Positions 1,933 to 23,988 of a stretch of DNA of 34,056 nt are shown here, piece by piece. Under the pieces are notes generated by a model, which did no database searches, was not told the origin of the DNA, and saw only the letters and a list, made by a program, of their open reading frames with translations. Where the stretch lies: the NCBI GenBank assembly GCA_013001975.1, contig JABDKX010000093.1, positions 1 through 34,056 of the forward strand, read 5' to 3'. A program made the position numbers and the translations under genes. The stretch is from Saprospiraceae bacterium (GTDB lineage: Bacteria; Bacteroidota; Bacteroidia; Chitinophagales; Saprospiraceae). Within the stretch, counting starts at the first letter, position 1; each line of letters starts with the position of its first letter.

Positions 1933-3213
1933 ATGGAATCGCGTATTATTTTTCATCATATACCAAAAACTGGAGGAACAACTCTTATTGGCATCTTAGA
2001 TCAATATTTTGATATTGAAGAAATTATGCCAAATAGGTATTTTGATAAACCTGCGCGAGATGTTACTTCTGAAGATGTCGAAGCTAAAGCCGAAGCCATT
2101 AAAACATACAATCTTATAAGAGGGCATTTTCCTATTCCTTGTTTTGATAATATTGGAGATGATTATTATCGTATTTGCCTCCTAAGAAATCCTGTTTCAA
2201 GATTATTTTCTTTATATAATGATTGGAGATCAAAAACAGAACAATCTCTGTCCACAGCTCATCCCTTGGATGTAAAAGCATCTAGGCTTGCCAAAGCAAA
2301 TAATATTTCTGATTTTCTTAAGCATTCTGACTACCCTATTCCAGCTTTGTTTGATAATGGTCAAACACGACTGCTTTCAGATTCTTTAAGTAAAAAAAGC
2401 ATAGGAGAAGCTGAATTGATCAAAGCAAAAGAAACAGTTGATAAAATGCAATTGGTTGGTATCACTGAAATGTTAGATTCTTTTCTTTATACTTTATGTC
2501 AAAAATTTAAATGGGTTTTTCCGAAACAATACCAATCGCTTAACACAAGAAAGTACGATCGTCAAGCCATGACAACTATTGATAAAGATATATTTCACGA
2601 GTTTTTAAAATTCGACTTAGAACTTTATGAATATGTAATCAGCAAATTCAATAAAACTGTTGTCAACCAACTAAAAGCAAAAAATAATAATAGTCAGATT
2701 AAGAGGCACCAGGTTAATCACATTTCTTTAGATATGTTAAAAGGGTTTAAATGTGATGGTTTTCATGTTAGAGAAGGCATTGGAGGAGATGATGTTTGGC
2801 GATGGACAGGACCTGATACTGAAAGTCATTTATACTTTAACTTGCAGCCCCATATTGATTATAATCTTGAGATTGATATTATAAGCGTTATAGATCAAGA
2901 AATCGTTGACAACCTGAAATTAAAATGTAATGGTACAAACCTAAAAATTGAAAATAAAGGTGCAGTAAATGGAAAACAAAGGGTGTCAGCAAAGATTGGC
3001 AGAGATCTGATTAATGTTGTTGAAGAAGATAAAATAACAATTAAAGTACCTTTTACAACTTCTCATGCAGCAGTTCAGCCTGAAACGAAAGATGACCGAC
3101 AAAAAGGCATCGCAATAACCAAGATTGAAATAAAAGCCTCATCAGACACTATTCAACATAAAGAAAAAGAAGGCAAACCATTGAAGAAGTTTTTCGAAAA
3201 ATTGCTTTCATAA
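1933..3213 (+). CDS. Sulfotransferase with C-terminal accessory domain
   Basis: A 426-aa protein expected to transfer sulfate from PAPS to a hydroxyl of a carbohydrate. The 5'-phosphosulfate-binding loop is HHIPKTGGTT, right after the chosen ATG (1933), and the 3'-phosphate site is ICLLRNPVSRLFSLY near residue ~80-95; this spacing matches the eukaryotic-type 2-O/HNK-like sulfotransferase superfamily. The frame is open back to a TTG at 1825, but those 36 extra residues lie upstream of the first beta strand and show no domain, so I start at 1933. Residues ~310-426 form a separate module opening with a Trp-x-Trp-Thr-Gly-Pro signature (near 2805) and ending in beta-like strands; it resembles the partial protein at 3-320. 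No membrane segment or signal peptide, so it probably acts in the cytoplasm on precursors or lipid-linked glycan. Confidence 0.85.
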   Translation: MESRIIFHHIPKTGGTTLIGILDQYFDIEEIMPNRYFDKPARDVTSEDVEAKAEAIKTYNLIRGHFPIPCFDNIGDDYYRICLLRNPVSRLFSLYNDWRSKTEQSLSTAHPLDVKASRLAKANNISDFLKHSDYPIPALFDNGQTRLLSDSLSKKSIGEAELIKAKETVDKMQLVGITEMLDSFLYTLCQKFKWVFPKQYQSLNTRKYDRQAMTTIDKDIFHEFLKFDLELYEYVISKFNKTVVNQLKAKNNNSQIKRHQVNHISLDMLKGFKCDGFHVREGIGGDDVWRWTGPDTESHLYFNLQPHIDYNLEIDIISVIDQEIVDNLKLKCNGTNLKIENKGAVNGKQRVSAKIGRDLINVVEEDKITIKVPFTTSHAAVQPETKDDRQKGIAITKIEIKASSDTIQHKEKEGKPLKKFFEKLLS

Positions 3214-3303
3214 ACTTTTAAAGCCTTTATTATTAAGCTGTTATTCACATATTTATAATAACAAAATTACCTTTACACATTTAAATACTTTAAAGAAATA
3301 GAT

Positions 3304-4251
3304 CTGAAAGCAATTCTTCATATTGGTCAACAGAAAACAGGGAGTACTGTACTCCAGAATTATTTACTCTTTTCAGAATCTCATCTTCGCTCTTATAATT
3401 TACATTATCCGAAATCTTTAGGCCTAAAGAAACAAAATAAATTACTGTCTGATACAGATCAATTATCAGACAAGGACGGTCAAACTTATTCAGATTTTAA
3501 AAATGAATTCAGTAACCATTCTCATTCAACTTTTGTTTTTTCAGAAGAAAACCTCTTTTCTATTCCACAACAGAAAATCGATGCAATAAAGATATTTCTA
3601 GAATCCTTTTTCGAAGAAATACATTTGGTAGCTTACTTAAGAAGACAGGATGATCATGTACTGAGTATTTATCAACAAAATATAAGAGGCAAACAAAGTG
3701 AAACCATTTTATCCATGATTGAGCAGATTGATGAACTTCCTCAATACGATTACTTATCCATTATATCAAGATGGCAAGACACTTTTCCGAACGCTCAATT
3801 GACAATACGTCCTTATGGTCAACTATTAAATGGAGATATTATTGAAGATTTTTCTGCTTTTTTAAATTGTCCGGTCAATTCTGATTATCAAGAACCCAAC
3901 TATGCCATTAAAAATTTAAGTTTTGATGCCCCATCAATTGAACTGATAAGACTCTTTAATAAGTTAGAAGCTGATGGCCAATTGATATTACCACATCTGA
4001 CCAAACGCCATATTAGAAAGACATTAAAAAATAGAAAGAGAGGTCAAAAATTTAAGTTATCACCAAAGGATCAAGTTAGAATTTGGGAAGCATTTAAAGT
4101 AAATAACTTAGCATTGTGCGACAAATATGAGCTTCGAGAATGCAAAGATTATTTTAGTTCACCTCCTATTCCAAACTCTGAAGTTTTCTACAACGAAGAT
4201 GTTCAGAATGATGATTTGTACCATTTATTTTTCAAAACCTTTGAATCCTAA
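3304..4251 (+). CDS. Sulfotransferase-like protein, tandem paralogue 1 (CTG start)
   Basis: The frame is continuously open from 3262 to 4251. A start at CTG 3304 gives 315 aa beginning LKAILHIGQQKTGSTVLQ, which aligns end to end with the next two genes (320 and 317 aa). A start at the internal TTG 3625 would delete the P-loop, so it is surely wrong. Motifs: 5'-PAPS-like loop HIGQQKTGST (residues ~6-15), a conserved SEENLF segment (~80), and a 3'-site candidate LVAYLRRQDDH followed by S-x-Y-Q (~109-125), as in sulfotransferases whose N-terminus reads HIG-x-x-KTG-[ST]-T. The adenine-side arginine/serine pattern is diverged, so activity is inferred. No signal peptide. It lies 12 nt upstream of the second paralogue, likely in one transcript. 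The CTG initiation itself is inferred from homology, since no ATG/GTG/TTG lies nearby in frame. Confidence 0.8.
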   Translation: MKAILHIGQQKTGSTVLQNYLLFSESHLRSYNLHYPKSLGLKKQNKLLSDTDQLSDKDGQTYSDFKNEFSNHSHSTFVFSEENLFSIPQQKIDAIKIFLESFFEEIHLVAYLRRQDDHVLSIYQQNIRGKQSETILSMIEQIDELPQYDYLSIISRWQDTFPNAQLTIRPYGQLLNGDIIEDFSAFLNCPVNSDYQEPNYAIKNLSFDAPSIELIRLFNKLEADGQLILPHLTKRHIRKTLKNRKRGQKFKLSPKDQVRIWEAFKVNNLALCDKYELRECKDYFSSPPIPNSEVFYNEDVQNDDLYHLFFKTFES

Positions 4252-4263
4252 TCATAAGATAAA

Positions 4264-5226
4264 TTGGAATTAATCCTTCATATCGGACAACAAAAAACGG
4301 GCTCTACAGCGCTCCAAACATTTTTAAATGAAAAATACGCGATTCTAAGAGGCCGCAAGATTCTATACCCACAAAGTCTTGGAAATGAGCACAATAAGCA
4401 ACATTTAATCATGCATAGCTTTAAAACTCAGTCCCTTAATGAAGAAAATGGGATAAAAGCAGATTTCTTGGCTGAAATCTCAAAAACAACACCAAAAAAA
4501 GTGATTATATCAGATGAAAATATGTTTGTAGGCAAGCCAGAAAACCTAAATCAGCTTAAAGTTTTTGTTAATGATATTTTTCATAAAGTCAAGATAATCT
4601 GCTACTTACGTGTTCAACATGACCAAATGCCTTCTAATTATCAGCAAGGATTAAAAGGCAAACTATCCAAAGATCTGCGATCTTGGTTAGACACGCATAT
4701 TTATAAAAGTGTTTACTACAAATATCATATCGTGCTCAATAGATGGAAAAACACATTCCCTGAAGCTAAAATCCTTGTTAAAACGGTAGGAAACTTATTA
4801 CATGATGATATCGTACAAGATTTTGTTGAAGCTGTTATTCCTGAAGTTAAAAATGAAATCATCTTTGAAAGTAAAACCATATCAAACAGATCAATTGACC
4901 AACCAAGTGGACATCTCTTATACTTTTTGAATAAACTCATTGATAAAAGCAAACACCCTAGCCCATTTCAATCAATTAAAGAAAGTGTGATATCTGACAG
5001 CAGTAATTACACCACTAAAACTCCTTTTGCATTTTCCAATGAAGAAAAGTTAGAAATTTGGAATCAGTTTAAAGACAGCAATACGCTCATAGCCAGTGAT
5101 TTTAAATTAAGCCAAGCTGACATAAACTATTTAACTTCGCCACCGGAAATGAAAGAAGACGATCAAATAGATAACTTAGAGCGTGTTTATCTTAAATTTT
5201 TAGAATACTTAGAAAAAAGAAAATAA
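4264..5226 (+). CDS. Sulfotransferase-like protein, tandem paralogue 2 (TTG start)
   Basis: 320 aa from TTG 4264, directly in front of the ILHIGQQKTGSTALQ P-loop; no ATG lies upstream before the previous stop, so TTG is the only sensible start. Same architecture as its neighbours: P-loop at residues ~5-15, a SDENMF segment (~80), a ICYLRVQHDQ...S-x-Y-Q segment (~115-130) where the second Arg of the sister proteins is replaced by Val, a LNRWKNTFPEA segment (~158), and a C-terminal Pro-Pro-Glu-Met region with an acidic, Lys-rich end. Predicted soluble. Family function: PAPS-dependent sulfation; the acceptor is unknown. The gap to the next gene is only 2 nt, implying translational coupling. The Arg-to-Val change may mean altered cofactor binding. 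Confidence 0.8.
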   Translation: MELILHIGQQKTGSTALQTFLNEKYAILRGRKILYPQSLGNEHNKQHLIMHSFKTQSLNEENGIKADFLAEISKTTPKKVIISDENMFVGKPENLNQLKVFVNDIFHKVKIICYLRVQHDQMPSNYQQGLKGKLSKDLRSWLDTHIYKSVYYKYHIVLNRWKNTFPEAKILVKTVGNLLHDDIVQDFVEAVIPEVKNEIIFESKTISNRSIDQPSGHLLYFLNKLIDKSKHPSPFQSIKESVISDSSNYTTKTPFAFSNEEKLEIWNQFKDSNTLIASDFKLSQADINYLTSPPEMKEDDQIDNLERVYLKFLEYLEKRK

Positions 5227-5228
5227 TC

Positions 5229-6182
5229 TTGAAAGTACATTTACATATTGGCCAACAAAAAACAGGATCAACCAGTATTCAAAAGTTTTTCGAAATCAAT
5301 AGAAAAGCACTTTCTAAGCAAGGATACCTTTATCCAAAAAGTTTAGGTGTTGATAAGCAAGTCGGTCTTTTCAAGCAAATTGATGACTTATTAGATCCTT
5401 CAAGTCAAGTATATAAGTCCTTTTTCAAAGAGATAGAAAAATCAAAATGCGAACATTTGATTCTCTCTGAGGAAAATCTGTTTACTTTAAAAGATGAACT
5501 TTTAGATAAAGTAGGTCAATTTCTGAACAGCCATTTCCAAGATATCTCAATTATTGCTTATTTAAGAAGACAGTATGATCAAGCGGCTAGTTTGTATCAG
5601 GAAGTGGTGAAAGGTCGTGTATTTCTAAAATACGAAGCGTGGATTGAGAAAAAACTAAACCAAGGATATTATAATTACACTTGGGTACTGGAGAGATGGG
5701 AAAATCGATTTCCAGAAGCAAAGATGAAAGTAAAAGCGTTTTATAATCTTCTAGAAAACGATATCAGGAAAGATATTTTAAATGAGATAAGCTTTCCAAA
5801 TATTGAAAAACTTAATTTCAATGAGGCTTTTAACTTTAAAAATACTGGAATTGACACGCTTTCAATTGAGATTTTACGCGTTTCGAATGCTTTCGTAAAA
5901 AAAGGCAACCCTAAAGATCCTGAAGCTTTTAGAGCCAAAGTGAGAAAATATGTATTTGGAAAAACATTCGACAAAAAGCTTGTCTTACATTATGCTCAAA
6001 AAGAAAGACTTTGGAATGAATTTCTGGCTTCTAATCAAGCGCTCATCAACAAATATCAATTATCTGAGGATGAATATTTCCTTGACAAGCCGAAAGAAGA
6101 GGATGGCTGGACCAATGATGATCATGATCCTGAAGAAGTCTTATTAGAATTAAGTAGAATTTATAATTTAAGTGAAGGTTGA
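5229..6182 (+). CDS. Sulfotransferase-like protein, tandem paralogue 3 (TTG start)
   Basis: 317 aa from TTG 5229, two bases after the preceding TAA. It begins with a short strand and HIGQQKTGSTSIQ, the same P-loop as the two genes before it. Other shared blocks are YLYPKSLG (~33-40), LSEENLF (~79), IIAYLRRQYDQ with S-x-Y-Q (~110-126), and LERWENRFPEA (~156). It is closest to paralogue 1 by eye (both keep YLRRQ and SEENLF). The C-terminus is acidic. The three genes probably arose by tandem duplication and may sulfate different positions or residues of one polysaccharide; this is inference. No promoter is visible between the paralogues, so one polycistronic message is likely. Confidence 0.82.
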   Translation: MKVHLHIGQQKTGSTSIQKFFEINRKALSKQGYLYPKSLGVDKQVGLFKQIDDLLDPSSQVYKSFFKEIEKSKCEHLILSEENLFTLKDELLDKVGQFLNSHFQDISIIAYLRRQYDQAASLYQEVVKGRVFLKYEAWIEKKLNQGYYNYTWVLERWENRFPEAKMKVKAFYNLLENDIRKDILNEISFPNIEKLNFNEAFNFKNTGIDTLSIEILRVSNAFVKKGNPKDPEAFRAKVRKYVFGKTFDKKLVLHYAQKERLWNEFLASNQALINKYQLSEDEYFLDKPKEEDGWTNDDHDPEEVLLELSRIYNLSEG

Positions 6183-6300
6183 GGTTGATCTTTAACAGAT
6201 TGATTAACAATACTTTAAATCTAAAACACACCATATTCAAATATAAAACCCTCCTTTTAACAAATGGACTGTTAATATTAGATATTAAAGAATATTAGCC

Positions 6301-6308
6301 TATTTTTG
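6301..6308 (+). promoter_or_regulatory. Candidate Bacteroidota -7 promoter element (TAnnTTTG)
   Basis: TATTTTTG matches the Bacteroidota -7 consensus exactly and lies 10 nt before TTG 6318. A clear TTTG/TTG -33 box is not seen at the expected distance. If used, the transcript would have a leader of only about 5 nt, so the next mRNA would be nearly leaderless. It would separate the acetylation cassette from the sulfotransferase genes. Confidence 0.35.
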
Positions 6309-6317
6309 CAGGGTTTT

Positions 6318-7787
6318 TTGAACAAAATATCTTTAGTATTGTCTATTAAAAGCTTTTCCATAGTTTCTAGTGCTCTTACGCTCCTTTTGAGTCTGGTAAT
6401 TATATTTTTTAATTACAATACGAATCCTTACTCCTATTTCAACGCGAACTATGAAGATTCCTATGATCTTTCTGGATATTGGAGAATAGTTAAACCTGAA
6501 TGGTACAAGCAAAAAAAATATGATATTGTCATTGTAGGTTCGAGCCGTTCACAATCTGGATTTAACCCTGTAACATTAGAAGATATAACAGGAAAAAAAG
6601 TTTACAATCTGGGACTACCGGGTATGGGTTATCATGAAGCTTACAAAACAGTTGAATTTATTATAAATGAAAAAAACTATAACGATTCACTTGAAATTAT
6701 TTTAGCGCTAGACGTTTTTTTAATGCCTCTAACTCATGAGATTGTAAGAAATAAAGCGGTGACATGGTTGCCTAAAAAAGATGGTGTCTTTGGAAAAATA
6801 GAAAACACGCTTGACTTTTATGCTCGAATGCTATTTTCGAGCAATGCCATTCGCAAAAGCCTTGAAGAAAGCAAGCGCAAACGAAATAATTTAAAAAACA
6901 TAGATTCTCGAAATTTAAAAGTTGATGATGAAATAGCTTCTTTAAAAGAAAAGATTAGAAAATTTAAAATTCAAATAGCACAACTTGAAACTAAAGTAAA
7001 AGAGAATCCTTCTGAAACCATACAAGAAAAAATAGATAAAAAGAAAACCTCCATTGAAAAATGGGAGGAATTGCTAATTAAAAAAATAAAGTTTTCTAAA
7101 AAGAAAAAAATATCGAAAGGTAAAAAACTGAATTGGAAAAAAAATGGTTTCTCGAAAATAGGTTTTAAATCATTTGAATCTAAAAGACTTCAAAAAGATT
7201 TTAAGAAATGGAGAAAAAGAAAAAAAGTACTCTTTTCAAATGAAAAACTAGACTACTTTAAAAAGACACTTGACTTGGTTTGTCAAAACCCAAATGTGAA
7301 GATCACTTTAATTCATGTACCTATGCACAACTATGTTCAATCAATTTTTTCAGAATTGAGCGGTACCTTTCAAAAGGATTTCAAAACACAAATGGCCAGC
7401 ACGTTTGCAAAAAAAGCAAATACATGTAATAGAATAAGGTTATTTGACTACATGAATACGAATAAATTAAATTCAAATTATTTAACTGAAGTAAATAAAA
7501 GTGAAAATTTCAGGGATCTGTCTCATATGAAAGCAAGCTATGGTGATCTTATTCTTTCAGAAATATTCTCTAACAGCAATTACATCAGTGAGTACGGAAA
7601 ACAGTTAACTGATTTGGATACTTACACTAAATACATTGCAGACGATTATGACTCATTAATGATTTGGAAATCGAATGCAACTGAATTATTAAAAAAACCA
7701 ACTAAAAAGAATAAGTCTCAGGAAATTGAAGAAGAAGATGAAGAAGAAGAAGAAGATGAAGACGCAGACGAAGGCTTAGAAATATAA
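6318..7787 (+). CDS. Membrane-anchored SGNH-like O-acetylation partner (AlgJ/AlgX/PatB-like) with Lys-rich coiled-coil insert
   Basis: 489 aa from TTG 6318 (TTG 6306 gives four more residues and overlaps the promoter-like TATTTTTG). One N-terminal membrane segment lies at ~10-32, with the rest probably periplasmic. Block I of the SGNH-like fold is IVIVGSSRSQSGFNP (GSSRS at ~74-78); the closing Asp-x-x-His is DLSHMKASYGD (~400-410). A predicted coiled coil very rich in Lys/Glu fills ~185-305, between the two halves of the fold. The C-terminus is an uninterrupted acidic tail of about 20 residues. It sits immediately upstream of an MBOAT gene, with a second SGNH-like gene just after, the arrangement of alginate and peptidoglycan O-acetylation systems. 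Role inferred: accept an acetyl group from the MBOAT and transfer it to glycan. Confidence 0.75.
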   Translation: MNKISLVLSIKSFSIVSSALTLLLSLVIIFFNYNTNPYSYFNANYEDSYDLSGYWRIVKPEWYKQKKYDIVIVGSSRSQSGFNPVTLEDITGKKVYNLGLPGMGYHEAYKTVEFIINEKNYNDSLEIILALDVFLMPLTHEIVRNKAVTWLPKKDGVFGKIENTLDFYARMLFSSNAIRKSLEESKRKRNNLKNIDSRNLKVDDEIASLKEKIRKFKIQIAQLETKVKENPSETIQEKIDKKKTSIEKWEELLIKKIKFSKKKKISKGKKLNWKKNGFSKIGFKSFESKRLQKDFKKWRKRKKVLFSNEKLDYFKKTLDLVCQNPNVKITLIHVPMHNYVQSIFSELSGTFQKDFKTQMASTFAKKANTCNRIRLFDYMNTNKLNSNYLTEVNKSENFRDLSHMKASYGDLILSEIFSNSNYISEYGKQLTDLDTYTKYIADDYDSLMIWKSNATELLKKPTKKNKSQEIEEEDEEEEEDEDADEGLEI

Positions 7788-7798
7788 AAGAAATATAA

Positions 7799-9394
7799 AT
7801 GTTATTTAGTTCAATACCTTTTTTAGCATTTTTTGCAATTGTATACATCTTAGTATTCGTTGCATCAAAATATAAAAACAGCAGATCCCTTCAGATGTGG
7901 ATCATTCTTATTGCCTCCCTTTTCTTTTATTCCTATTGGAATCCTCCATTTCTAATCTTGTTGGGATTATCAATTATCGTCAACTACTTGTTGTCCATAG
8001 TTATTATCAAAAATCATGAACAAGGCGGAACCAATAATATTCCATTTTATTTTGGTTTACTATTTAACCTGGGACTCATCGCGTACTATAAATATGCCTA
8101 CTTTTTAGTTGATTCTATCAATAGTATGTTTTCAACTAATATTGGCATTAGAGATGATATCTTTTTACCACTAGGTATTTCATTTTTTACTTTCCAACAA
8201 ATAGCATTTCTAATTGATTGTAAGAAAGGTCTCAGCAAGAAATACAACTTCAAAGAATACACTCTATTTATCTCATTCTTTCCACAACTAATTGCTGGAC
8301 CTATTGTCCATCACAAAGAGATGATGCCTCAATTCGAGGATAAAAGTAAAAAGTTAATCACTTACGAAAATTTTGCTGTTGGCTTTGTTTTACTGGCTAT
8401 TGGATTATTTAAAAAGTTGGTCATCGCTGATAATGCGGCTATGATTTGTGATCCATTTTTTGCAAAGTCCTTAGGTCAAACTCCGCTCTACATGATAGAT
8501 TCTTGGGTTGGCGTTTTGGCCTATACCTTCCAGATATATTTTGACTTTTCAGGATATTGTGATATGGCTTTAGGAGTTGCAAGAATGTTAGGTATCGTCC
8601 TACCAATAAATTTCTTTTCACCTTATAAATCAAGAAACATCAGTGATTTTTGGCGATTATGGCATATTACTTTATCGAGATTTTTAAGAGACTATGTTTA
8701 CATACCGTTAGGAGGTAATAGGAAAGGAAAACCAAGACGTTACATGAACCTTATGGCTACGATGTTGGTGGGTGGATTGTGGCATGGCGCATCATGGACT
8801 TTTGTTGTTTGGGGTGGATTACATGGATTATATTTAGTTATTAACCATTTTTGGAGCTATATAAAAAAAGGGATAGGCTTTTTACATAATGAAAGTAAGG
8901 CTTTAAATTTCTTAGGTACGTTTTCAAGTATCAGCATTACATTCTTAGCAGTGGTTTTTGCTTGGGTATTTTTCAGAGCAACCACATTTGATTCAGCTTT
9001 TAAAATCTGTTCGGCCATGTTTGGCGAAAATGGATTAGGTACATTAAAGTCTACTTTGACATTTTTCAGCGAAGGTCAATTTAAAGGCATACTTGGTTTA
9101 TTCAATGTCGCAGATAATGTTCATCACAATCACTATGCTCAACTAGAAAGCATCGTTCTATTATTTGGCATCAGCCTTATTGTTTTCTTATTACCGAATT
9201 CAGTTCAGATTGCAGAAAAATTCAATCCAGTAATTGATCCATCGAAAGTAGTAGCCGCTTTCTCTGAACAATTTAAAATTATCAGAATCGCATTTAAACC
9301 ATCTTTGAGTTGGGCTGTATTTATCGCTGTTATTTTTGTTTTCTCTGTGTTGAATATGACAAGATTAAGTCCATTCTTATATTTCCAATTCTAA
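7799..9394 (+). CDS. MBOAT-family O-acyltransferase (AlgI/PatA-like)
   Basis: 531 aa, polytopic, from ATG 7799. Hallmarks of the AlgI/PatA/DltB family: FLPLGISFFTFQQIAFLID (~120-140), FFPQLIAGPIVHH (~160-172), the NISDFWRLWHITLSRFLRDY block followed by YIPLGGNRKG (~280-310), and the catalytic His region GGLWHGASW (H329) with GGLHGLY (H342) close behind. Length is typical for the family (~460-530). Known role: moves acetyl groups from a cytoplasmic donor across the inner membrane to an SGNH-type partner. Genes on both sides encode such partners (11 nt from the first, 3 nt to the second), so this is the core of a three-gene glycan O-acetylation module. I give no symbol because the acceptor is unknown. 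Confidence 0.92.
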   Translation: MLFSSIPFLAFFAIVYILVFVASKYKNSRSLQMWIILIASLFFYSYWNPPFLILLGLSIIVNYLLSIVIIKNHEQGGTNNIPFYFGLLFNLGLIAYYKYAYFLVDSINSMFSTNIGIRDDIFLPLGISFFTFQQIAFLIDCKKGLSKKYNFKEYTLFISFFPQLIAGPIVHHKEMMPQFEDKSKKLITYENFAVGFVLLAIGLFKKLVIADNAAMICDPFFAKSLGQTPLYMIDSWVGVLAYTFQIYFDFSGYCDMALGVARMLGIVLPINFFSPYKSRNISDFWRLWHITLSRFLRDYVYIPLGGNRKGKPRRYMNLMATMLVGGLWHGASWTFVVWGGLHGLYLVINHFWSYIKKGIGFLHNESKALNFLGTFSSISITFLAVVFAWVFFRATTFDSAFKICSAMFGENGLGTLKSTLTFFSEGQFKGILGLFNVADNVHHNHYAQLESIVLLFGISLIVFLLPNSVQIAEKFNPVIDPSKVVAAFSEQFKIIRIAFKPSLSWAVFIAVIFVFSVLNMTRLSPFLYFQF

Positions 9395-9397
9395 GCA

Positions 9398-10594
9398 GTG
9401 AAGAAGTTTTCATTCATATCATTTGGACTTAGTATATTCTTAATCGTTGGTATACTTTCAATGAATTACTTTGTTGATGCTTATGGCATTTTTCGGCCAG
9501 ATACCAATAAAGCATATGACGTTACTGGTTTTTTAAGAAATGTTAAGCCATTCTGGTTTAAGAAATTAAACTATGAAGGATTTATAATAGGAACATCTCG
9601 AGCACATAATGGTTTTGACCCTGATGGCATTGAAAAAATTACGAATACAAAGTATTTTAATTATGGCCAGTCTGCCTTGTCTCATACTGGAGCAAAACAT
9701 TTGGTGTTATTTGCAGAAAATGAAGGGATTAATAAATATATCATCTTATTAGATGCCTTTTTGTTACCAAATAACAGTCGCAATTATCCTGATGTTAAAC
9801 CGAATTGGGTTCCGGATTATGAAGATGAAGAAAAAAATAAAAAGTATTACTCAAAAGAAATATTACCAAAAGTATTTTCAGTTCCAGCTTTTACTAAAAG
9901 TTTAAGGAAGATTTTTAACATGCAAAATGATGCGACTTGGAAACCAAACGGATTAAACTTGCATGGTTACGAAAGTTTTCAAGGTGGCAAAAGATTATGG
10001 GCGCCAATGCGTGCCAATTTGAGGAAAGGGAAAAACAGAAGTTTTAATAAAAGTAAAGTAAATGCCTTTGAAAACGCCATTGATGCTTTATGTGAAGATC
10101 CTTCTAACGAAGTCATTTTAATTTTACCACCTGTCAGCATGTTTTATTACACAGCCATTGATTACCAATCACCTGGCGTTAATAATGAGTTTAGAGAACA
10201 TGTCACAACATATATAAATGAGTTGCCTGACAGCTGTAAATCAAATTTCCAACTTTATGATTTTATGTATCCAAATTATATTACAACTGAAAGGATAGAT
10301 AAAAACATTTCATCACAATATTATAGAGACCCTGCACATTTTCGTGCTACTACAGGTAATATGATTATTCAAGAAATTGAAGATTATAAAAATGGCAAAT
10401 TGAATAAGAAAGCAGCTTTGGTTGATTTGATTGGTAAAAATTATCGACAATTGATAAGAAAGCAAAACCGTTTATGCCAAATATGGATCGACTCAATCGG
10501 CAATCCAAAACTTGAAAGCTTTGGTCTTTTAGACAACATTCAAAAGATTCAAAATAACGAGTCAGAAACGTCTTCGGAAGATGACGAAGAGTAA
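9398..10594 (+). CDS. Second SGNH-like O-acetylation partner (AlgJ/PatB-like), GTG start
   Basis: 398 aa from GTG 9398, three bases after the MBOAT stop, implying coupled translation. An N-terminal membrane anchor lies at ~5-25. Block I reads FIIGTSRAHNGFDP (GTSR at ~64-67) and the closing Asp-x-x-His is YYRDPAHFRATTG (~308-320). It parallels the upstream partner but lacks the Lys-rich coiled-coil insert; the C-terminus is again acidic (ending SSEDDEE). In known systems one MBOAT can serve one or two such proteins (AlgJ with AlgX; PatB). The different block I residues (GTSR versus GSSR) suggest the two are not redundant. Predicted role: periplasmic acetyl transfer to polysaccharide. It ends 17 nt before the convergent response-regulator gene, with no obvious terminator between. 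Confidence 0.75.
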   Translation: MKKFSFISFGLSIFLIVGILSMNYFVDAYGIFRPDTNKAYDVTGFLRNVKPFWFKKLNYEGFIIGTSRAHNGFDPDGIEKITNTKYFNYGQSALSHTGAKHLVLFAENEGINKYIILLDAFLLPNNSRNYPDVKPNWVPDYEDEEKNKKYYSKEILPKVFSVPAFTKSLRKIFNMQNDATWKPNGLNLHGYESFQGGKRLWAPMRANLRKGKNRSFNKSKVNAFENAIDALCEDPSNEVILILPPVSMFYYTAIDYQSPGVNNEFREHVTTYINELPDSCKSNFQLYDFMYPNYITTERIDKNISSQYYRDPAHFRATTGNMIIQEIEDYKNGKLNKKAALVDLIGKNYRQLIRKQNRLCQIWIDSIGNPKLESFGLLDNIQKIQNNESETSSEDDEE

Positions 10595-15789: not shown

Positions 15790-16599
15790 TTGAAAAGTCC
15801 ATTAGCCATTACATGTCGAGCGCACTCTGGAGGCAGAATATTATCGGAGATTTATAAAAGAAGTGGCATCCAAATGGGTAGTCTGTATCCTAAAACGATG
15901 GATACAAATTATTTTTCAATTAGAAACAATACAATAGTTAAGGAACTTATCCTAAAATCATTTAAATACGATAAGCTTCCAGATAAAAGAAAATTGCATT
16001 TTCAAAAAAAAATGCAAACGTGTTTAGATAATTTTATTCAAACTGAAAATATAGATACCAAAACTCCATTTGGTTGGAAATTTGGCGAAACGCTTTTTAT
16101 GCTACCCTATCTATTTGATGCTGTGCCAAACGCTCGCGTGATTCATCTTATCAGAGATGGCAGAGACGTTATGCTCAGTCGTATTGAAGCCAGGTTCGAT
16201 GAAAACTTTCATGATCCTTTTAATAAAGTTATGATCTTTGGAAAGGCCAGTCAATTAAAGTATAACAATCAATTGCTGGATCAAAATGTTATTGCAAAGT
16301 ATCGAACTGAATTAGAGCTCATTCACTGGCAAACCGTAATTGAATTCAGTAAGAAGCTGAGAAAGTATGAAGATCAATATTTAGAAATCAGATACGAAGA
16401 CTTATGTCAAAATCCATTAAAAATTCTTAACGTTATTTCAGATTTCATTGAAGTTAATTTTCCTCCAGATGTTTTAGAGTGGGCCAATGAAAATATTTCT
16501 GCTGATAGGATTGGCAAGTGGAAAAAGGAGGATCCAGACTATATTAAAACTATGTCTGAAATTGCAAAGGATACTTTAGTTGAGTATGGGTATTTATAG
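15790..16599 (+). CDS. Sulfotransferase family protein (TTG start)
   Basis: 269 aa from TTG 15790; no in-frame ATG precedes the first motif. The P-loop region is ITCRAHSGGRILSEIYKRSG (residues ~6-25), a Ser-Gly-Gly variant of the usual PRSGTT-type loop. The 3'-phosphate-binding site is VIHLIRDGRDVMLSRIEARF (~117-136), a very typical sulfotransferase signature. Near the end, a LEIRYEDLCQNPLKIL segment (~199-214) and IGKWKKEDPDY (~240-250) fit the prokaryotic sulfotransferase family. Distinct subfamily from the other sulfotransferases here. Cytoplasmic. The acceptor is unknown; glycan or small molecule are both possible. Its TAG stop supplies the first base of the REP array, so it was probably trimmed or closely bounded by the repeat insertion. 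Confidence 0.85.
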   Translation: MKSPLAITCRAHSGGRILSEIYKRSGIQMGSLYPKTMDTNYFSIRNNTIVKELILKSFKYDKLPDKRKLHFQKKMQTCLDNFIQTENIDTKTPFGWKFGETLFMLPYLFDAVPNARVIHLIRDGRDVMLSRIEARFDENFHDPFNKVMIFGKASQLKYNNQLLDQNVIAKYRTELELIHWQTVIEFSKKLRKYEDQYLEIRYEDLCQNPLKILNVISDFIEVNFPPDVLEWANENISADRIGKWKKEDPDYIKTMSEIAKDTLVEYGYL

Positions 16600-16797: not shown

Positions 16798-16802
16798 CTT
16801 GT

Positions 16803-17384: not shown

Positions 17385-17468
17385 AATTTGTAAATTCAAA
17401 GATGAAATCAAGTTCTCGCTTAAGTATGAAAAGTTAGGAAGTTTGTAAACAGGTATTATTAAAGAAAT

Positions 17469-17664: not shown

Positions 17665-17676
17665 ATAAAGCGTATC

Positions 17677-17727
17677 ATAAAATGTAAAAAGCCTGCTCTC
17701 AATGAGAGCAGGCTTTTTACATTTTAT
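17677..17727 (-). terminator. Strong, probably bidirectional, intrinsic terminator
   Basis: A near-perfect inverted repeat: GTAAAAAGCCTGCTCTC pairs with GAGAGCAGGCTTTTTAC around a 3-nt loop, and pairing continues outward through ATAAAAT/ATTTTAT. The GC-rich core (GCCTGCTCTC) is flanked by T5 on either strand. It lies 15 nt beyond the stop of the minus-strand secreted-protein gene and would also block transcripts coming from the REP/transposase side. Confidence 0.9.
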
Positions 17728-17742
17728 TATGATTGACTCAAA

Positions 17743-18939
17743 TTATTGAGCAATAACCATTTTCTTTGTACCGATAGTTTGACCGTCAACGATTAATCTG
17801 TAAGAATAAGTTCCAGAAGGAATATCTTCAGCTCTTACGTTAAGTACACCTTCTCCAGTGTGATCAACAGCCATAGTCTTTATCATTTTACCATTGAAAT
17901 CATAGATTTCTATGCTAGCGTTATTAGCATCTGTAGGAATGATGTAAGAAATTCTTGTCACTCCGTTAAAAGGATTTGGACTGTTCTGCTCTAATGAAGC
18001 TAAGTCATGGTAAGTTAATGTTACATTAGACTCTATAACAGTAGAAGAGATACCATTAGTTTTAATAACTTCAACAGCTTCAGCTAATTCAATTAATTTA
18101 GCTTCTAAAGCATCAATTTGCTCAGTTTTAGCTTCAATAATTGCTTGCTGATCTTGAATTGCATTCATAAGCATATACTTAACTGCAGTATCATCAATCT
18201 GTAAGAAGTTTTGCTTACTGATAACGTTACCGTCATTATCTTCTTCAATATGCGTAAATTCACTTACGATCTCAGGAGCTACTTCCTGCAGGTCTTGAGC
18301 ATATACACCTACGTGTAGTGCATCAGCAGCAGTTCCACCTTCACCAGTATACTCGTAGTAAATTGGATTTAATTGCATAACTTCATTCAAACCGTAGTTA
18401 AAAGGAGTTGTGTTTGTTTTTAATCTTCTATCCGATGTTAATACAACACCGTTAGCTTTTACGTTACCAGCAACGTCAAGCATTTCAGTTGGGTTTGTTA
18501 AACCAATACCAACATCACCACCAGTTGTTACTCTAACTCTATGAGACCCATCAGTCCAAATCTGGAATGTAGATCCAGGATCATCTAATCTCGCTTGGAA
18601 AGGAAGCGCACCTTTATGAATCATGTTTGTTTGACCATTAAAAGCTCTTTGGAATCTGAATCCAAATGAATTGTAAAGAGACGCATCTCCAATTAAGTCA
18701 AAAGAAGCAATACCATCAGCAGTTCTACCGAATCCAACTTTAAGTTGAGCCGTAGAAGAACCAGCAGATCTTCCTACTTCTAATACATTTCCTCTAATTC
18801 TTGCATCATCAACAACATCTAGAGAAGTAATAGGGTTTGTTATACCTACACCAACGTTACCATTAGCGATAACTTTTAGCTGAGAATAACCGAAACTTGC
18901 AACACAAAGCAAGCATAATGTAAAAAGTATATTTTTCAT
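17743..18939 (-). CDS. Secreted protein with S74 intramolecular chaperone domain and T9SS sorting tail
   Basis: 398 aa. A Sec signal peptide (MKNILFTLCLLCVASFGYSQ) is followed by repetitive beta-rich segments with two GN/GDVGIGxTNPxxxLDV motifs (~29-42 and ~143-153), as in tail-fibre-like proteins. An S74 (endosialidase-type) chaperone domain starts at SDRRLKTNTTPF (~175) with YAQDLQEVAPEIV (~215), including the Ser-Asp dyad used for self-cleavage in phage relatives. A coiled coil (~245-290) follows, then a type A T9SS sorting domain of ~80 residues with NSPNPFNGVTRISY and a final KKMVIAQ. Expected path: Sec to periplasm, trimerisation, export to the surface by T9SS. Codon use looks less AT-rich than the neighbours, suggesting strong expression. 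Monocistronic. Confidence 0.9.
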   Translation of the reverse strand: MKNILFTLCLLCVASFGYSQLKVIANGNVGVGITNPITSLDVVDDARIRGNVLEVGRSAGSSTAQLKVGFGRTADGIASFDLIGDASLYNSFGFRFQRAFNGQTNMIHKGALPFQARLDDPGSTFQIWTDGSHRVRVTTGGDVGIGLTNPTEMLDVAGNVKANGVVLTSDRRLKTNTTPFNYGLNEVMQLNPIYYEYTGEGGTAADALHVGVYAQDLQEVAPEIVSEFTHIEEDNDGNVISKQNFLQIDDTAVKYMLMNAIQDQQAIIEAKTEQIDALEAKLIELAEAVEVIKTNGISSTVIESNVTLTYHDLASLEQNSPNPFNGVTRISYIIPTDANNASIEIYDFNGKMIKTMAVDHTGEGVLNVRAEDIPSGTYSYRLIVDGQTIGTKKMVIAQ

Positions 18940-18990
18940 GTTAAAAATTTAATTTCGTTAAAATAATAATTGTTAAAAATTGATCTAAAC

Positions 18991-18998
18991 CAAATGTA
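18991..18998 (-). promoter_or_regulatory. Bacteroidota -7 promoter element for the secreted-protein gene
   Basis: On the minus strand this reads TACATTTG, a perfect TAnnTTTG match, 51 nt before the ATG. That leaves a leader of about 45 nt, a normal length. A -33 TTG box is not evident. Confidence 0.5.
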
Positions 18999-19318
18999 TT
19001 GTAAAACTAAAACATATTTCCCTCTCTTTTTTCCCCCATTTAGGTGATTTTTAAAGATATCCTACTTTTTTTAAACCCATTAGACCATTTCAATATTATA
19101 AAGAAACAAATATATAGCCAATTTTCAAGGGAGAAACCCTGAATTTTATGGAATCTTAAAGACATAAATTGAAAATTAAATAATCTTTACTTTATTCAGC
19201 AAAGAATCTCCTCATTGGAAGCATTTCTCAATATAGTTAATAATTGAAAAAAAATTATACGAAAATTGATATTTTTCGCGCTTTTTATCAAATTATTACA
19301 CATAATTAAGAAAGTCTG

Positions 19319-19347
19319 TTGTTCGTAGTCTTGAAAGGTTAATTTTG
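19319..19347 (+). promoter_or_regulatory. Candidate promoter for the glycosyltransferase-TPR operon
   Basis: TAATTTTG at 19340-19347 matches the Bacteroidota -7 consensus. TTG at 19319-19321 lies 18 nt upstream, close to the expected -33 distance. The predicted leader is roughly 35-40 nt to TTG 19393. Confidence 0.5.
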
Positions 19348-19392
19348 GCACTTATTATGCATTGTTAATAGGGACAATGAAATAACATTGAT

Positions 19393-21120
19393 TTGAAGAC
19401 CATATTTACAACAATAGTTATATTTTTTAATGGTAGGCGTGAAGCTCAAAGAACTTTACACACGCTGTCATCTGAATACCAGAACATCAATTCAGATTTA
19501 TATAATGTGCTTGTATTAGACAGTGGCTCAAGTGAACCTTTAATTCAAAGTGAAATAGAAGCATTCGGGCCTAATTTTACCTATAAATATGTTCAATCCA
19601 ATTATCCCTCTCCGATTGAAGCTCTGAGATTAGGTCTTGAACTATGTGAGACGCCCTATATAAATGTATGTATCGATGGGGCTAGGATGCTTTCTCCCGG
19701 CATCTTCAACTACTTTCTTGACATTTTAAATATCGATTCAGATCCTTTTGTCATTACAACTGGGTTTCATATTGGTAAATACCATCAAAACTTTTCAATA
19801 CTCGAAGGATATAACCAAAATATTGAGGATGAATTGCTAGATTATTTGGATTGGCAAAACAATGGTTATCGATTATTCAATATATCCACTTTGAAACAGG
19901 ATGGATATTCCTTTTTTTCAAGATTGGCAGAAAGCAATTGCTTCTTTGTAAAAACAGAGACTTTGAAAAGTATTGGTTTTAATCCTGGATTTATAAGCAA
20001 AGGAGGCGGTCTCATAAATTTATCTGTTTTCAGAGACCTCATTGAGATTAAAAAACTCAATACCTACCATCTGGTTGGAGAAGCAACTTTTCACCAGTTT
20101 CATGGAGGTGCCGCTTCAAACATTTCAATGGAAGATCATCCTGTTCAAGAATACAAAGAGGAATACCGCAATATAATGGGTAAAGAATTTATCAGCCCAA
20201 AGTACTCTCCTATTTATTATGGAGAAATTAAAAGCGAGATTGAAACACTGAGGCCAAAATATGCATCTTTCCATATATTAAAGACAGTTAACTATCTCGT
20301 AAGTCAAGGCAGAGAAGATGAAGCAATCAAAATTTTAGAATTAGCAAAAAAAGATCATCCATATCATACTGTCTTCCTTGTCAAGTTGAATAAAATTCTT
20401 ATTAAAAAAGGTGAAATCGATTTAGCCCTCAAGTATATTAATGAGGCCTTGAATATTTTACCACAACATCCTCATTTATATTTAAGTCGCTCAAGAATTT
20501 ATAATGCACTCAATAAATGGGAAGAGAGTAAAGTTGATTTACAACAATGTATAAAGTTAAGTCCCAATATTTTCACTGCCTACTTAGATTTATATGAAAA
20601 TTACGAACATTTTAATTTAAATGAGTCACAGGCATTTGATGATCTTATAAATCATAATCAGCATATTAATAAACAACAAGATCTGCGCAGATTTATAAAT
20701 ATCCTTATCAAAAAAAATGATCGAAAATCAGCGCTTGAGGCATTAGAATCTCATATCTATTTATTTAATGATGATCATGAAGGAAGCCTTCTTAAATTTC
20801 AAATATTAAGAAAGTCTGATAATCAAAAAGCATTAGATCAAGCTGCTGATCAATTGTCTCAAGATGTGATAGCAGATCCAACAATGTCTTTAAAGTTAAA
20901 AAAACGAATATGTCAAATACTTGTGAACCATGAGTACTATTCTCTTGGGAAACAAATATTGGTATCTATAAAAGAATTTAAAAATGAAGTTTCTAATAAT
21001 AAAAGAGAGCCTTCGGAAGAAAAGCTATTTGAAGCTATATTAAATATAATGCCTAAAGTAAATAAGCAAAAAGCCCAAGCTTTTGTTTCATATTTGCACG
21101 CGGAAATGAAATTATCTTAA
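19393..21120 (+). CDS. GT2-like glycosyltransferase fused to TPR repeats
   Basis: 575 aa from TTG 19393. Residues ~1-265 are a GT-A fold: an N-terminal strand with TTIVIFFNGRREAQRTL, VLVLDSGSS (~43-51) and a CIDGARMLSPG motif (~94-104) in the place of the DXD metal site, then GEATFHQFHGG (~229-239). Residues ~290-545 are tetratricopeptide-like (for example EDEAIKILELAKKDHPYHTVF and DLALKYINEALNILPQHP). GT2-TPR fusions occur in bacterial surface-glycan loci, where the TPR may bind a partner or acceptor. No membrane segment. The next gene starts directly after the stop codon (TAAATG) and encodes a paralogue, so the two are cotranscribed. Confidence 0.83.
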   Translation: MKTIFTTIVIFFNGRREAQRTLHTLSSEYQNINSDLYNVLVLDSGSSEPLIQSEIEAFGPNFTYKYVQSNYPSPIEALRLGLELCETPYINVCIDGARMLSPGIFNYFLDILNIDSDPFVITTGFHIGKYHQNFSILEGYNQNIEDELLDYLDWQNNGYRLFNISTLKQDGYSFFSRLAESNCFFVKTETLKSIGFNPGFISKGGGLINLSVFRDLIEIKKLNTYHLVGEATFHQFHGGAASNISMEDHPVQEYKEEYRNIMGKEFISPKYSPIYYGEIKSEIETLRPKYASFHILKTVNYLVSQGREDEAIKILELAKKDHPYHTVFLVKLNKILIKKGEIDLALKYINEALNILPQHPHLYLSRSRIYNALNKWEESKVDLQQCIKLSPNIFTAYLDLYENYEHFNLNESQAFDDLINHNQHINKQQDLRRFINILIKKNDRKSALEALESHIYLFNDDHEGSLLKFQILRKSDNQKALDQAADQLSQDVIADPTMSLKLKKRICQILVNHEYYSLGKQILVSIKEFKNEVSNNKREPSEEKLFEAILNIMPKVNKQKAQAFVSYLHAEMKLS

Positions 21121-23988
21121 ATGGAATTATCAGTTGTTATAATATTTCACAATAATAAAAGAGAAGCGCAAAGAAGTTTGTTTGCGCTTTCTAAGCAATA
21201 TCAAGAAAATATTGAATCTCTAGAATATGAAGTGATTTGTATTGATAGTAATTCTACTGAAAAACTAGATCCAAAAGATTTTAGTGATTTAGGAAGCACA
21301 TTCAAATTTCACGATTTTAAAACCGACAACCCATCTCCTGCAGATGCATTGATTTTTGGAGTTGAACAGGCCATAAGTGAAAATCTGTGTATTATTATTG
21401 ATGGTGCTCACATTATAACACCGAATGTGATTAATCACTTCAGAACACTCAGCCAGATCAATCCAAATTATTTCATTTACACCCACCCTTTCCATCTTGG
21501 TGAATATTACCAAAACGATAATATGACGTTGGGTTATAATCAAGATGCAGAAGACAAACTTCTTGATAGTTGTGATTGGAAAGAAAATGGTTACAATCTT
21601 TTTTCAATATCAAATTTTAAGCAATCAAATGAAACTTTTGATCAGTATATTTTTGAAAGCAATTGCTTCTTTATCACCAAATCCAATCTGACAAAAATAG
21701 GTGGTATAAACGAAGCATTTAAATCAAGAGGTGGTGGTTTTATCAACTTAGATATTTTTAAAAATGCTGTTTCCAATGATGATTTACAAAACTATCAATT
21801 GGTAGGTGAAGCCAGTTTCCATCAATTTCATGGCGGAACCAGTACAAATGAATCTCGTGTATCAGAATTACAAATCGAATTCCGAAATGAGTATAAAAAA
21901 ATTAAAGGCCATCATTACAAGTCGCCAGTTTACGATGCCATTGCATATGGCTGCCAACTAAACCCCGCGCAGATTCGGTTTTATAATTTATACAGCCACA
22001 ATAAACTTGTCAACGATCTTATAAAAAAGAACAAGCAACAAGAAGCTATTGAAGTTTTAAATCAACTTATCAGCTTATATCCATTTAAGGTTGAATACAA
22101 AGTTCAATTAATTAAATTACATACCAACCTATTACAATTTGAAGAGGCGGAAGCTATTATTGAAGATTTATTAAAAACCCATCCATATAATATAAAAGTT
22201 TTAGATGCTTCTGCAAAATATTATTTAGCGAGAAGGGATAATGAAAATGTAAAAATATATACCAGTAAAATAATTGAAATTGACCCATTACACCTTCCAA
22301 GCCAACTGAGCCTTTTGAAGCTGTATGCTCAAGAAGGAAATGAAAAAGAAAAGGAAAAAACTTTAATTGATATACTCGGTTTTCCAGAAGATCGATTCAA
22401 AAATTCATTGGTTCTTCAAATAGCGATTTACTGCGTTGAACATAAGTTCAAAAAATACTCTGAACAATTTTATAACATTTGTTTGCCATTCAAAAATGAG
22501 TTTGATTTTCTCATTTTAAAGGTACTCTATGATGAATTACATGAATCTGAATTTGATCAAGCATACCTTGATAAATTTATTTCGCAACATAACTTGAGGA
22601 ATGAATCTTCCATAAAAGTTACCAAGTTGATTAAGATTCTTTTCAGAATGGAACAATGGGATTCTGGATTCCAGTTGTGCAATTTATTGAAAGACTATTT
22701 CCCAGAAGAACAGGTACTAAACTTCTTGTACGGCAGATACTACTATTACCAAAAAGAATTTGACAAAGCTGAAGAACATTTAAGGATGTTCTTAAAAGCT
22801 GAATCAAATAGATTCTTATTTCCAAATACGCACTACTTGTTGAGCAAAATTGCGCTTAAGAGCAAGGACTACAATACCTTCCATAAACATGCAAAAGAAG
22901 CGTACAAGAAAATTAAAAATACCAAATATGGTTTAAACTATGTGAGGTCATTGCAATTTCTCCAAAATTACAAACCAGCCATAACTGAGTTAGAAAAAAT
23001 CAAAACATTCTCCAATGTTGACCAAGGGAATGTCAAAGAAATGATTTTAAAAAACGCTATAAAAATCAGTGACTTAGAGATTATAAAGAAGTACGCTCCT
23101 ACCGATTTTGATTATTCCCAATTGGGCTCTGTTGATTATAAGGACGATGTTTTCAAGCCTATTATTTTTACACATATTCAAAAATGTGGAGGAACTTCAT
23201 TTAGAAGGTATTTATCAAATGCTGCACTTTATTCTGGGGTCAAAGGAAGTCAAATTCATATTCCAGGTCAAAACGGCCAAAGTCCCAATACAAATTTAAT
23301 AACGTTGAATGATGATGAAATCGAAGATGTTATTGCTAGAAATATTAAAGTATTGGCGGACCATTCTACATTCAGATCTGATAAAGTAAAAAAAGTAGTT
23401 CCTAATTATTTAGACGCTTACAATCTAACTTATCTGAGACATCCGATTAAACGATTGTATTCTTCTTACTACTATTTCTACTTTGGAAAAAACTTTAATA
23501 AAACCGAATATAATAATATAAACATCAATGATCTGCCAGCTAACCTCTTAAAGAAATTTATTAAAGAGAATGCAAATGTAGCCACGGCATTTATAAGCGG
23601 TAAAATGTGGGCTCCTGACTTAATAAATATCAAACCTGAAGACTTAACATTAGCAAAAGCTAATCTAGAGCAATTCCAGTTTATAGGAATCACTGAAGTA
23701 TCTGACATTTCTATGAAAGTTTTTAATAAAGTAAAACCTGATTATTTCAATTCTTTTGTGAGAAATATTCCAAGGATAAATAAAGGCAGTCAAGTACAAA
23801 GGGAAAGATATCCTAACGAAGAAATTAAAAAAATGCTGATTAAAGCCAATAGGTTAGATATAAAATTATATAACCTGGCTATCAATAAATTTATATCGAA
23901 ATATAAAACCTACTTAAATAAGGAAGAAATTCTAAAAATCAGATCTTTAAAAATTACAGACGAAAGTTTGGAACAACTTTATTCTTAA
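21121..23988 (+). CDS. Trimodular GT2-like / TPR / sulfotransferase fusion protein
   Basis: 955 aa from ATG 21121, zero bases after the previous stop. Residues ~1-265 are a GT-A domain paralogous to the preceding protein (shared REAQRSL, IIIDGAH, YNQDAEDKLLD, GEASFHQFHGG); the motif is DGAH where the neighbour has DGAR. Residues ~290-660 are TPR-like helices, with clear YYYQKEFDKAEEHLR and QEAIEVLNQLISLYP units. Residues ~680-955 are a sulfotransferase: FTHIQKCGGTSFRRYL (5'-PAPS loop, ~683-698), a conserved ADHSTF (~746) and LTYLRHPIKRLYSSYYYF (3'-site, ~769-786), then FQFIGITEVSD (~850). One polypeptide could add a sugar and sulfate it, or act on adjacent residues. The stop is shared with the convergent methyltransferase (overlap TTAA). 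Confidence 0.87.
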   Translation: MELSVVIIFHNNKREAQRSLFALSKQYQENIESLEYEVICIDSNSTEKLDPKDFSDLGSTFKFHDFKTDNPSPADALIFGVEQAISENLCIIIDGAHIITPNVINHFRTLSQINPNYFIYTHPFHLGEYYQNDNMTLGYNQDAEDKLLDSCDWKENGYNLFSISNFKQSNETFDQYIFESNCFFITKSNLTKIGGINEAFKSRGGGFINLDIFKNAVSNDDLQNYQLVGEASFHQFHGGTSTNESRVSELQIEFRNEYKKIKGHHYKSPVYDAIAYGCQLNPAQIRFYNLYSHNKLVNDLIKKNKQQEAIEVLNQLISLYPFKVEYKVQLIKLHTNLLQFEEAEAIIEDLLKTHPYNIKVLDASAKYYLARRDNENVKIYTSKIIEIDPLHLPSQLSLLKLYAQEGNEKEKEKTLIDILGFPEDRFKNSLVLQIAIYCVEHKFKKYSEQFYNICLPFKNEFDFLILKVLYDELHESEFDQAYLDKFISQHNLRNESSIKVTKLIKILFRMEQWDSGFQLCNLLKDYFPEEQVLNFLYGRYYYYQKEFDKAEEHLRMFLKAESNRFLFPNTHYLLSKIALKSKDYNTFHKHAKEAYKKIKNTKYGLNYVRSLQFLQNYKPAITELEKIKTFSNVDQGNVKEMILKNAIKISDLEIIKKYAPTDFDYSQLGSVDYKDDVFKPIIFTHIQKCGGTSFRRYLSNAALYSGVKGSQIHIPGQNGQSPNTNLITLNDDEIEDVIARNIKVLADHSTFRSDKVKKVVPNYLDAYNLTYLRHPIKRLYSSYYYFYFGKNFNKTEYNNININDLPANLLKKFIKENANVATAFISGKMWAPDLINIKPEDLTLAKANLEQFQFIGITEVSDISMKVFNKVKPDYFNSFVRNIPRINKGSQVQRERYPNEEIKKMLIKANRLDIKLYNLAINKFISKYKTYLNKEEILKIRSLKITDESLEQLYS

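Follow-up and report, generated by a model that had tools for sequence, protein, structure and literature searches.

A stretch of 34,056 nucleotides from a Saprospiraceae bacterium (hereafter the window) was found to encode six putative carbohydrate sulfotransferases dependent on 3'-phosphoadenosine 5'-phosphosulfate (PAPS). The interpretation that we favor, with a probability of about 0.72, is that these enzymes decorate surface or extracellular glycans and that PAPS is reserved for sulfation. The window is the entire contig C157 of a draft genome (4.23 Mb, 259 contigs, 98.6% complete), which was compared with samples of 60 related genomes and 14 genomes of the genus, each including the genome itself, and with 395 genomes of the phylum. 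Pfam scans of the window covered 26 of its 31 listed open reading frames (ORFs).

Sulfotransferases of the window and of the genome

The six sulfotransferase genes or domains are as follows.

1825-3213, +, Sulfotransfer_2 enzyme (PF03567, 29.8 bits against a cut-off of 22 by hmmscan; also found in the genome search)
3304-4251, +, HIGQQKTGST-type sulfotransferase with a probable CTG start (homology to the next two, and motifs; no Pfam match)
4264-5226, +, HIGQQKTGST-type sulfotransferase (Sulfotransfer_1 at 20 bits, under the cut-off of 22; motifs)
5229-6182, +, HIGQQKTGST-type sulfotransferase, modelled (profile comparison, model and motifs; no sulfotransferase Pfam match)
15790-16599, +, Sulfotransfer_3 enzyme that stands alone (PF13469, 45.8 bits against a cut-off of 27; motifs)
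21121-23988, +, fusion of a glycosyltransferase family 2 (GT2) domain, TPR and a C-terminal Sulfotransfer_2 domain (PF00535, 23.6 bits against a cut-off of 23.3; PF03567, 24.9 bits against a cut-off of 22 in the genome search)

A P-loop, which we take to be the 5' phosphosulfate-binding motif of PAPS-dependent sulfotransferases, is present in all six, followed 70 to 108 residues downstream by R-x7-S, presumably their 3' phosphate-binding motif. The two motifs together occurred in none of 5,000 shuffles of each sulfotransferase and in none of the 21 other window ORFs of at least 150 amino acids, in a test for which the patterns were fixed only after the motifs were known and the 21121 protein was represented by residues 671 to 955. 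The first-pass annotation of this DNA, made from the sequence alone, had placed six sulfotransferase domains here in at least three sequence types, and both statements are confirmed. The Pfam searches that it had proposed were productive for three of the six (1825 and 15790 by hmmscan, 21121 in the genome search only) and for none of the three HIGQQ-type proteins.

In the 1825-3213 protein, H..K.GG, a later H and R-x7-S are invariant across a five-row alignment, and its C-terminal part (residues 291 to 462) resembles part of a sulfotransferase-like protein on contig C204 (E 2.8e-6). An open frame at positions 3 to 317, interrupted by the left end of the contig, was considered as the tail of a sulfotransferase with a C-terminal domain of this type and was rejected, since phmmer at E 0.1 found no similarity between it and any of the ORFs fetched.

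Because none of the three HIGQQKTGST-type proteins reaches any Pfam cut-off, evidence beyond Pfam was required for this type. The second and third proteins of the tandem are each 32% identical to the first. An alignment of nine rows kept H-I-G-x-x-K, S-x-E, R and W throughout, and a profile built from this family (HIG profile) matched a set of five ST1/ST3-type proteins with 97% probability (E 1.2e-10), both motifs being aligned. The predicted structure of the 5229 protein, built from 4 sequences, was good (predicted local distance difference test [pLDDT] 84.9, predicted template modelling score [pTM] 0.82). Its top Foldseek match in the PDB was 1nst, the sulfotransferase domain of heparan sulfate N-deacetylase/N-sulfotransferase (NDST), a weak match (E 3e-3, TM 0.47/0.52, 13% identity) and a likeness from which the acceptor is not inferable. 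A search of PDB sequences returned 22 distinct sequences at E ≤1, of which the best was a sulfotransferase (3rnl), itself weak (E 0.017), and the others were unrelated. In the 3304 gene, ATG, GTG and TTG starts are all lacking before position 3625, and a CTG at 3304 lines up with the TTG at which each of its two paralogues begins, so that the gene has either a rare start or a damaged one.

The HIG family is sparse. It was found in 4 of the 60 relatives and, by a search with the alignment, in 21 of the 395 phylum genomes (the present genome included in both counts). A named genome collection yielded six HIG loci out of 109 pattern matches: one, from a Proteobacteria metagenome-assembled genome (MAG), matches over most of its length at 25% identity, and the other five are partial Actinomadura matches; of these five, only L015 gave a readable HIG protein in the ORF listing. 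None of 89 pattern matches among viral contigs was a HIGQQ relative. HIGxxKTGST proteins may constitute an unrecognized sulfotransferase family, which we have not seen described.

The C terminus of the 21121 protein exceeded the Sulfotransfer_2 cut-off only in the genome search; by hmmscan the whole protein gave a sub-threshold Gal-3-O-sulfotransferase match (20.3 against a cut-off of 27). The same GT2-TPR-Sulfotransfer_2 architecture was found in an 812-amino-acid protein of the same-family genome G016 (PF03567, 35.9 bits; PF00535, 26.0). Overall, the 21121 protein was matched in five of the 60 relatives, its own genome counted. G017 has a GT2-TPR protein without a sulfotransferase match, G057 carries GT2-TPR and sulfotransferase on different contigs, and G006 matches in the sulfotransferase part only.

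Across the genome, approximately 20 sulfotransferase genes were identified: six in the window, three on C204, two each on C190, C249 and C199, and one each on C209, C217, C184, C192 and C1. Fourteen reach a sulfotransferase Pfam cut-off and six were recognized by homology or motifs, namely, the three HIGQQ genes, a contig-edge fragment on C190 and two C204 genes that gave no sulfotransferase Pfam match, one with both motifs and the other matching 1825 at E 1e-23, its listed ORF being without a P-loop. Sulfotransfer_3 matches number 10 in this genome versus 0 to 4 in the 13 other genus genomes. Contig C249 carries two sulfotransferases with Wzx and two Wzy_C matches (one below cut-off), C199 carries two with an ABC transporter bearing Wzt_C, and C190 has an ABC transporter, a Sulfotransfer_1 match that narrowly exceeds the cut-off, and the beginning of a fourth HIGQQ gene. 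Linkage of C190 to the window is unproven; the 200-base ends, compared with 12 loci of the same genome, had no 20-mer in common. In the same-genus genome G003, about 11 kb hold an ABC transporter, two HIG-type sulfotransferases, Sulfotransfer_1 and Sulfotransfer_3 enzymes, an MBOAT (membrane-bound O-acyltransferase) gene and a sulfatase.

The six window sulfotransferases belong to this genome-wide sulfation capacity and are not one system. They fall in three clusters, so that the single locus of the first-pass annotation was loosely drawn. The left cluster consists, in order, of FkbM, Sulfotransfer_2, the three HIGQQ sulfotransferases, an SGNH-like gene, MBOAT and another SGNH-like gene; an opposite-strand response regulator and histidine kinase and then a nucleoside hydrolase separate it from the lone Sulfotransfer_3 gene, which in turn is separated from the GT2-TPR pair by an IS200-like transposase and an S74 protein with a type IX secretion system (T9SS) tail. 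The mixture of sulfotransferases with GT2, MBOAT and nucleotide-sugar genes that had been noted was borne out by Pfam.

Sulfate activation and its neighborhood in the genus

PAPS-forming genes, which the first-pass annotation had named as a check on its proposal, are present in the genome: CysC, and CysD and CysN side by side, the latter two named by domain, size and adjacency. No match to NIR_SIR (sulfite reductase) was found in the genome, with the control positive in 11 of 14, and no CysH was detected in the draft, the second and only other PF01507 match reading as TilS. Because neither a sulfite reductase nor a PAPS reductase was found in this 98.6% complete draft, PAPS would be left for sulfation. 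Within the genus, CysC was present in 13/14 genomes, NIR_SIR in 0/14 and Sulfotransfer_3 in 13/14; G002 and G011 (2/14) have a CysH-sized second PF01507 match without NIR_SIR. Among the 60 genomes, 53 had CysC and 12 had NIR_SIR; CysC was found in 45 of the 48 lacking NIR_SIR, and Sulfotransfer_3 in 37 of those 45. In a lineage with sulfate activation and no detected sulfate reduction, the making of sulfated glycans could be tested cleanly by isotopic and genetic means.

A gene resembling Wzz and other polysaccharide co-polymerases (PCP) lies beside CysC or one gene off, on the same strand, in 10 of the 13 CysC-bearing genus genomes. The corresponding feature is as follows.

L008 8822-10522, and L044-L047, L050, L052-L055 and L064: Wzz/PCP-like gene near the adenosine 5'-phosphosulfate (APS) kinase gene, in ten genus genomes and the same-family genome G030

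The search profile was made from four homologous Wzz/PCP-like proteins (from this genome, G002, G005 and G008), and only six of the ten cases are therefore independent, the other four having supplied the profile. The proteins keep a conserved C-terminal segment containing proline. Elsewhere in the family, G018 has an ABC-2 exporter subunit just past cysCDN and G028 has a UDP-sugar dehydrogenase ahead of cysC. These CysC neighborhoods point to polysaccharide as the probable destination of PAPS in the genus.

At same-family cysC loci, the neighbors seen were an ABC-2 exporter subunit at L057, a UDP-sugar dehydrogenase at L062 and, at L061, genes that look NusG-like.

Proposed pathway and alternative explanations

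In the pathway that we propose, sulfate and ATP would be converted to APS by CysD-CysN and APS to PAPS by CysC, the genes for which are present, and PAPS would remain for sulfation, reductases being undetected in the draft. The sulfotransferases would then transfer sulfate from PAPS to sugars during or after chain building by GT2-type enzymes. Because the 21121-23988 protein joins glycosyltransferase and sulfotransferase in one chain, elongation and sulfation may be coupled. Methyl and acyl groups could be added by FkbM and other methyltransferases and by the MBOAT with its two partners, and the chain would be exported through ABC or Wzx/Wzy systems whose genes lie outside the window, with the Wzz-like protein encoded beside CysC; these exporter genes exist in the genome, and their pairing with the window is presumptive. 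Surface-glycan sulfation is the most likely role of these enzymes, with a sulfated glycan as the putative product. That the entire genus has redirected sulfate in this way, with Wzz-linked activation, reduction gone and varied sulfotransferases (HIGxxKTGST, fusion) sulfating several surface glycans, stands at even odds.

Several observations weigh against this interpretation. No Wzx, Wzy, ABC exporter or polymerase was present among the scanned window ORFs, so that the window does not form the single self-contained system first envisaged, and the export and polymerase set that the first-pass annotation had suggested seeking was located beside sulfotransferases on other contigs (C249 and C199). 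The sulfotransferases on C1 and C192 are surrounded by apparent housekeeping genes. CysC is not adjacent to CysD in this genome, and G013 has CysC, yet no CysD/PF01507 match at E 1e-8. No Wzz-like gene was seen near CysC in G003, G004 (where the contig starts about 1 kb before CysC) or G007, and outside the genus such a gene was found at one of 11 same-family loci examined, from 18 genomes with CysC. The Wzz-like protein of the present genome is itself below threshold (GNVR, 22.2 bits against a cut-off of 27.7; Wzz, 17.9 against 25.5), and none of three relatives' proteins scanned matched Wzz or GNVR. Across the 60 related genomes, the association of Sulfotransfer_3 with CysC (42/53 versus 3/7; Fisher p 0.058) is suggestive only, and that with lack of NIR_SIR (39/48 versus 6/12; p 0.056) was likewise nonsignificant; these genomes, being related, do not count as independent. 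As to the HIG type, the S of R-x7-S is missing from one of the nine alignment rows, comparison of the profile with a Sulfotransfer_2 set by hhalign gave just 18% over 28 columns at R-x7-S, and Foldseek returned no PDB match to the 5229 model at E ≤0.001, with other P-loop proteins ranking closely after the first.

These last points bear on the possibility that the HIGQQKTGST proteins are other P-loop enzymes and not sulfotransferases, which is also consistent with their scant Pfam support, the weak 3rnl match and the presence of kinases among the structures ranked close after the sulfotransferase domain. We consider this very improbable, as R-x7-S occurs in all three proteins, both motifs are aligned in the 97% match to ST1/ST3-type proteins, NDST is first by Foldseek E-value and a Sulfotransfer_2 gene is adjacent. 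A further possibility is that PAPS serves mainly sulfur assimilation through an overlooked reductase, the sulfotransferases being incidental. CysDNC commonly serves assimilation, a CysH-sized gene occurs in two members of the genus, and the genome is a draft in 259 contigs; set against this, NIR_SIR is absent from all 14 genus genomes while occurring in 12 of the 60 overall, and the other PF01507 match of this genome reads as TilS, which makes an assimilatory role highly improbable. Sulfation of acceptors other than polysaccharide (lipids, glycoproteins or small molecules) is unlikely on balance, with more in its favor: sulfotransferase folds do not reveal the acceptor, the stand-alone enzymes (15790 and those on C1 and C192) lack glycan-related neighbors by appearance, and the C204 genes have as neighbors two halogenase-like genes and what appear to be genes for an AMP-ligase and an acyl-CoA dehydrogenase. 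Glycan sulfation accounts better for a left cluster that includes MBOAT and FkbM, for the fusion of a sulfotransferase to GT2 and for the exporter genes adjoining the sulfotransferases of C249 and C199.

Comparison with described systems and other genes of the window

Sulfotransferases are not rare in this phylum: Sulfotransfer_3 was found in 91 of the 395 phylum genomes at E 1e-8 (control positive in 1/14) and in 45 of the 60 relatives at E 1e-5 (control positive in 2/14). The view that sulfated polysaccharides are little described here fits the literature searched, and it is the genes that prove to be common. In PMC8205485, cyanobacteria are said to be the exclusive makers of sulfated polysaccharides among bacteria, and PMC7356697 also reports such polysaccharides from Kiritimatiellales. 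A mat metagenome study (PMC9723792) reported that none of its Bacteroidetes MAGs had a sulfotransferase by BLAST (30% identity, 1e-10), a negative that may be a matter of search sensitivity, given the 91 of 395 phylum genomes in which the Sulfotransfer_3 profile was matched here. In granular sludge, material resembling sulfated glycosaminoglycans has been measured, with makers called unclear in PMC7356697, and few sulfotransferase matches are reported in PMC10483923. No such system was found reported for this phylum in the literature searched, which left most subscription journals outside its reach.

Bacterial sulfated exopolysaccharide made with sulfotransferases is already a known kind, as in synechan. 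According to PMC8205485, the synechan (xss) cluster of Synechocystis PCC 6803 has two sulfotransferases of distinct subfamilies, glycosyltransferases and a Wzx/Wzy set, and C249 of the present genome is similar in pairing two sulfotransferases with Wzx and Wzy_C matches. The window differs from xss in that the ORFs scanned hold no Wzx/Wzy, its sulfotransferases and an export set not being in one cluster, and in having more sulfotransferases (three without Pfam cover), the GT2-TPR-sulfotransferase fusion and an MBOAT module; synechan was also analyzed chemically, whereas the window system is known from genes alone. A putative sulfated glycosaminoglycan cluster of Pontiella sulfatireligans, as presented in PMC7356697, likewise has a sulfotransferase among GT2 and GT4 genes; it belongs to a different phylum, has one sulfotransferase versus several in the window, and is accompanied by detection of a sulfated exopolymer, against gene content only for the window. 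Sulfate activation in Entamoeba also feeds sulfation, by analogy only, since that system is eukaryotic and mitosomal, with sulfolipids as product (PMC6801973). Within the limits of these sources, we have not seen described the number and variety of sulfotransferases, the HIG family, the fusion, or Wzz-linked sulfate activation without detected reduction.

The right end of the window holds GT2, methyltransferase and nucleotide-sugar genes. Genes other than the sulfotransferases include the following.

427-1818, +, FkbM-type methyltransferase, first complete gene of the left cluster (PF05050, 47.6 bits)
6306-7787, +, predicted SGNH/AlgJ-DltD-like partner of MBOAT (resemblance to 9398-10594; no Pfam match)
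7799-9394, +, MBOAT O-acyltransferase, DltB/AlgI-like (PF03062, 151 bits)
9398-10594, +, predicted SGNH/AlgJ-DltD-like partner of MBOAT (resemblance to 6306-7787; no Pfam match)
19393-21120, +, GT2-like and TPR protein, paralogue of 21121-23988 (33% identity) without the sulfotransferase domain (TPR matches; GT2 by homology only)
23985-24764, -, S-adenosylmethionine-dependent methyltransferase (PF13489)
24739-25686, -, GT2, polyprenyl-phosphate-sugar type by appearance (PF00535, 91.3 bits)
25686-27224, -, multi-pass membrane protein by appearance (no Pfam or NCBIfam match)
27322-28374, +, dTDP-glucose 4,6-dehydratase-like, RmlB by appearance (PF16363, PF01370)
28308-28928, +, dTDP-4-dehydrorhamnose 3,5-epimerase, RmlC (PF00908)
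28940-29812, +, sugar nucleotidyltransferase, RmlA-like (PF00483)
29915-31225, +, UDP-glucose/GDP-mannose dehydrogenase family, probably UDP-glucose dehydrogenase (PF03721, PF00984, PF03720)
32388-33323, +, NAD-dependent epimerase/dehydratase, UDP-xylose-synthase-like by appearance (PF16363, PF01370)

A three-gene O-acetylation cassette had been proposed for the left cluster. Its MBOAT is firm, although against the DltB model it scored 172.6, under the cut-off of 375; the flanking genes are less so, having no Pfam match and, for 9398-10594, a poor structure model (pLDDT 48.8). The two flanking genes are 29% identical to each other, with GxSR and DxxH motifs in common, the SGNH-like motifs having been read by eye. 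As in DltB-DltD and AlgI-AlgJ modules, an MBOAT is accompanied by putative partners, here two that flank it and are homologous to each other; unlike in those modules, the identity of the partners is a prediction.

Further features were noted elsewhere. The sulfatase of the G003 locus with sulfotransferases and MBOAT (L027 3248-4795) has an SGSH_C domain, as if sulfate were also trimmed. On C204 (L009 6775-10631), three sulfotransferase-like genes lie in tandem, one with a TPR match, near MBOAT-like and SGNH-like genes. A P-loop protein that is sulfotransferase-like by appearance (L035 7644-8408) lies close to the Sulfotransfer_3 gene of C184. The loci on C209 (L033) and C217 (L034) resemble diverged copies of one locus; in each, a Sulfotransfer_3 enzyme is accompanied by MBOAT-like and SGNH-like genes.

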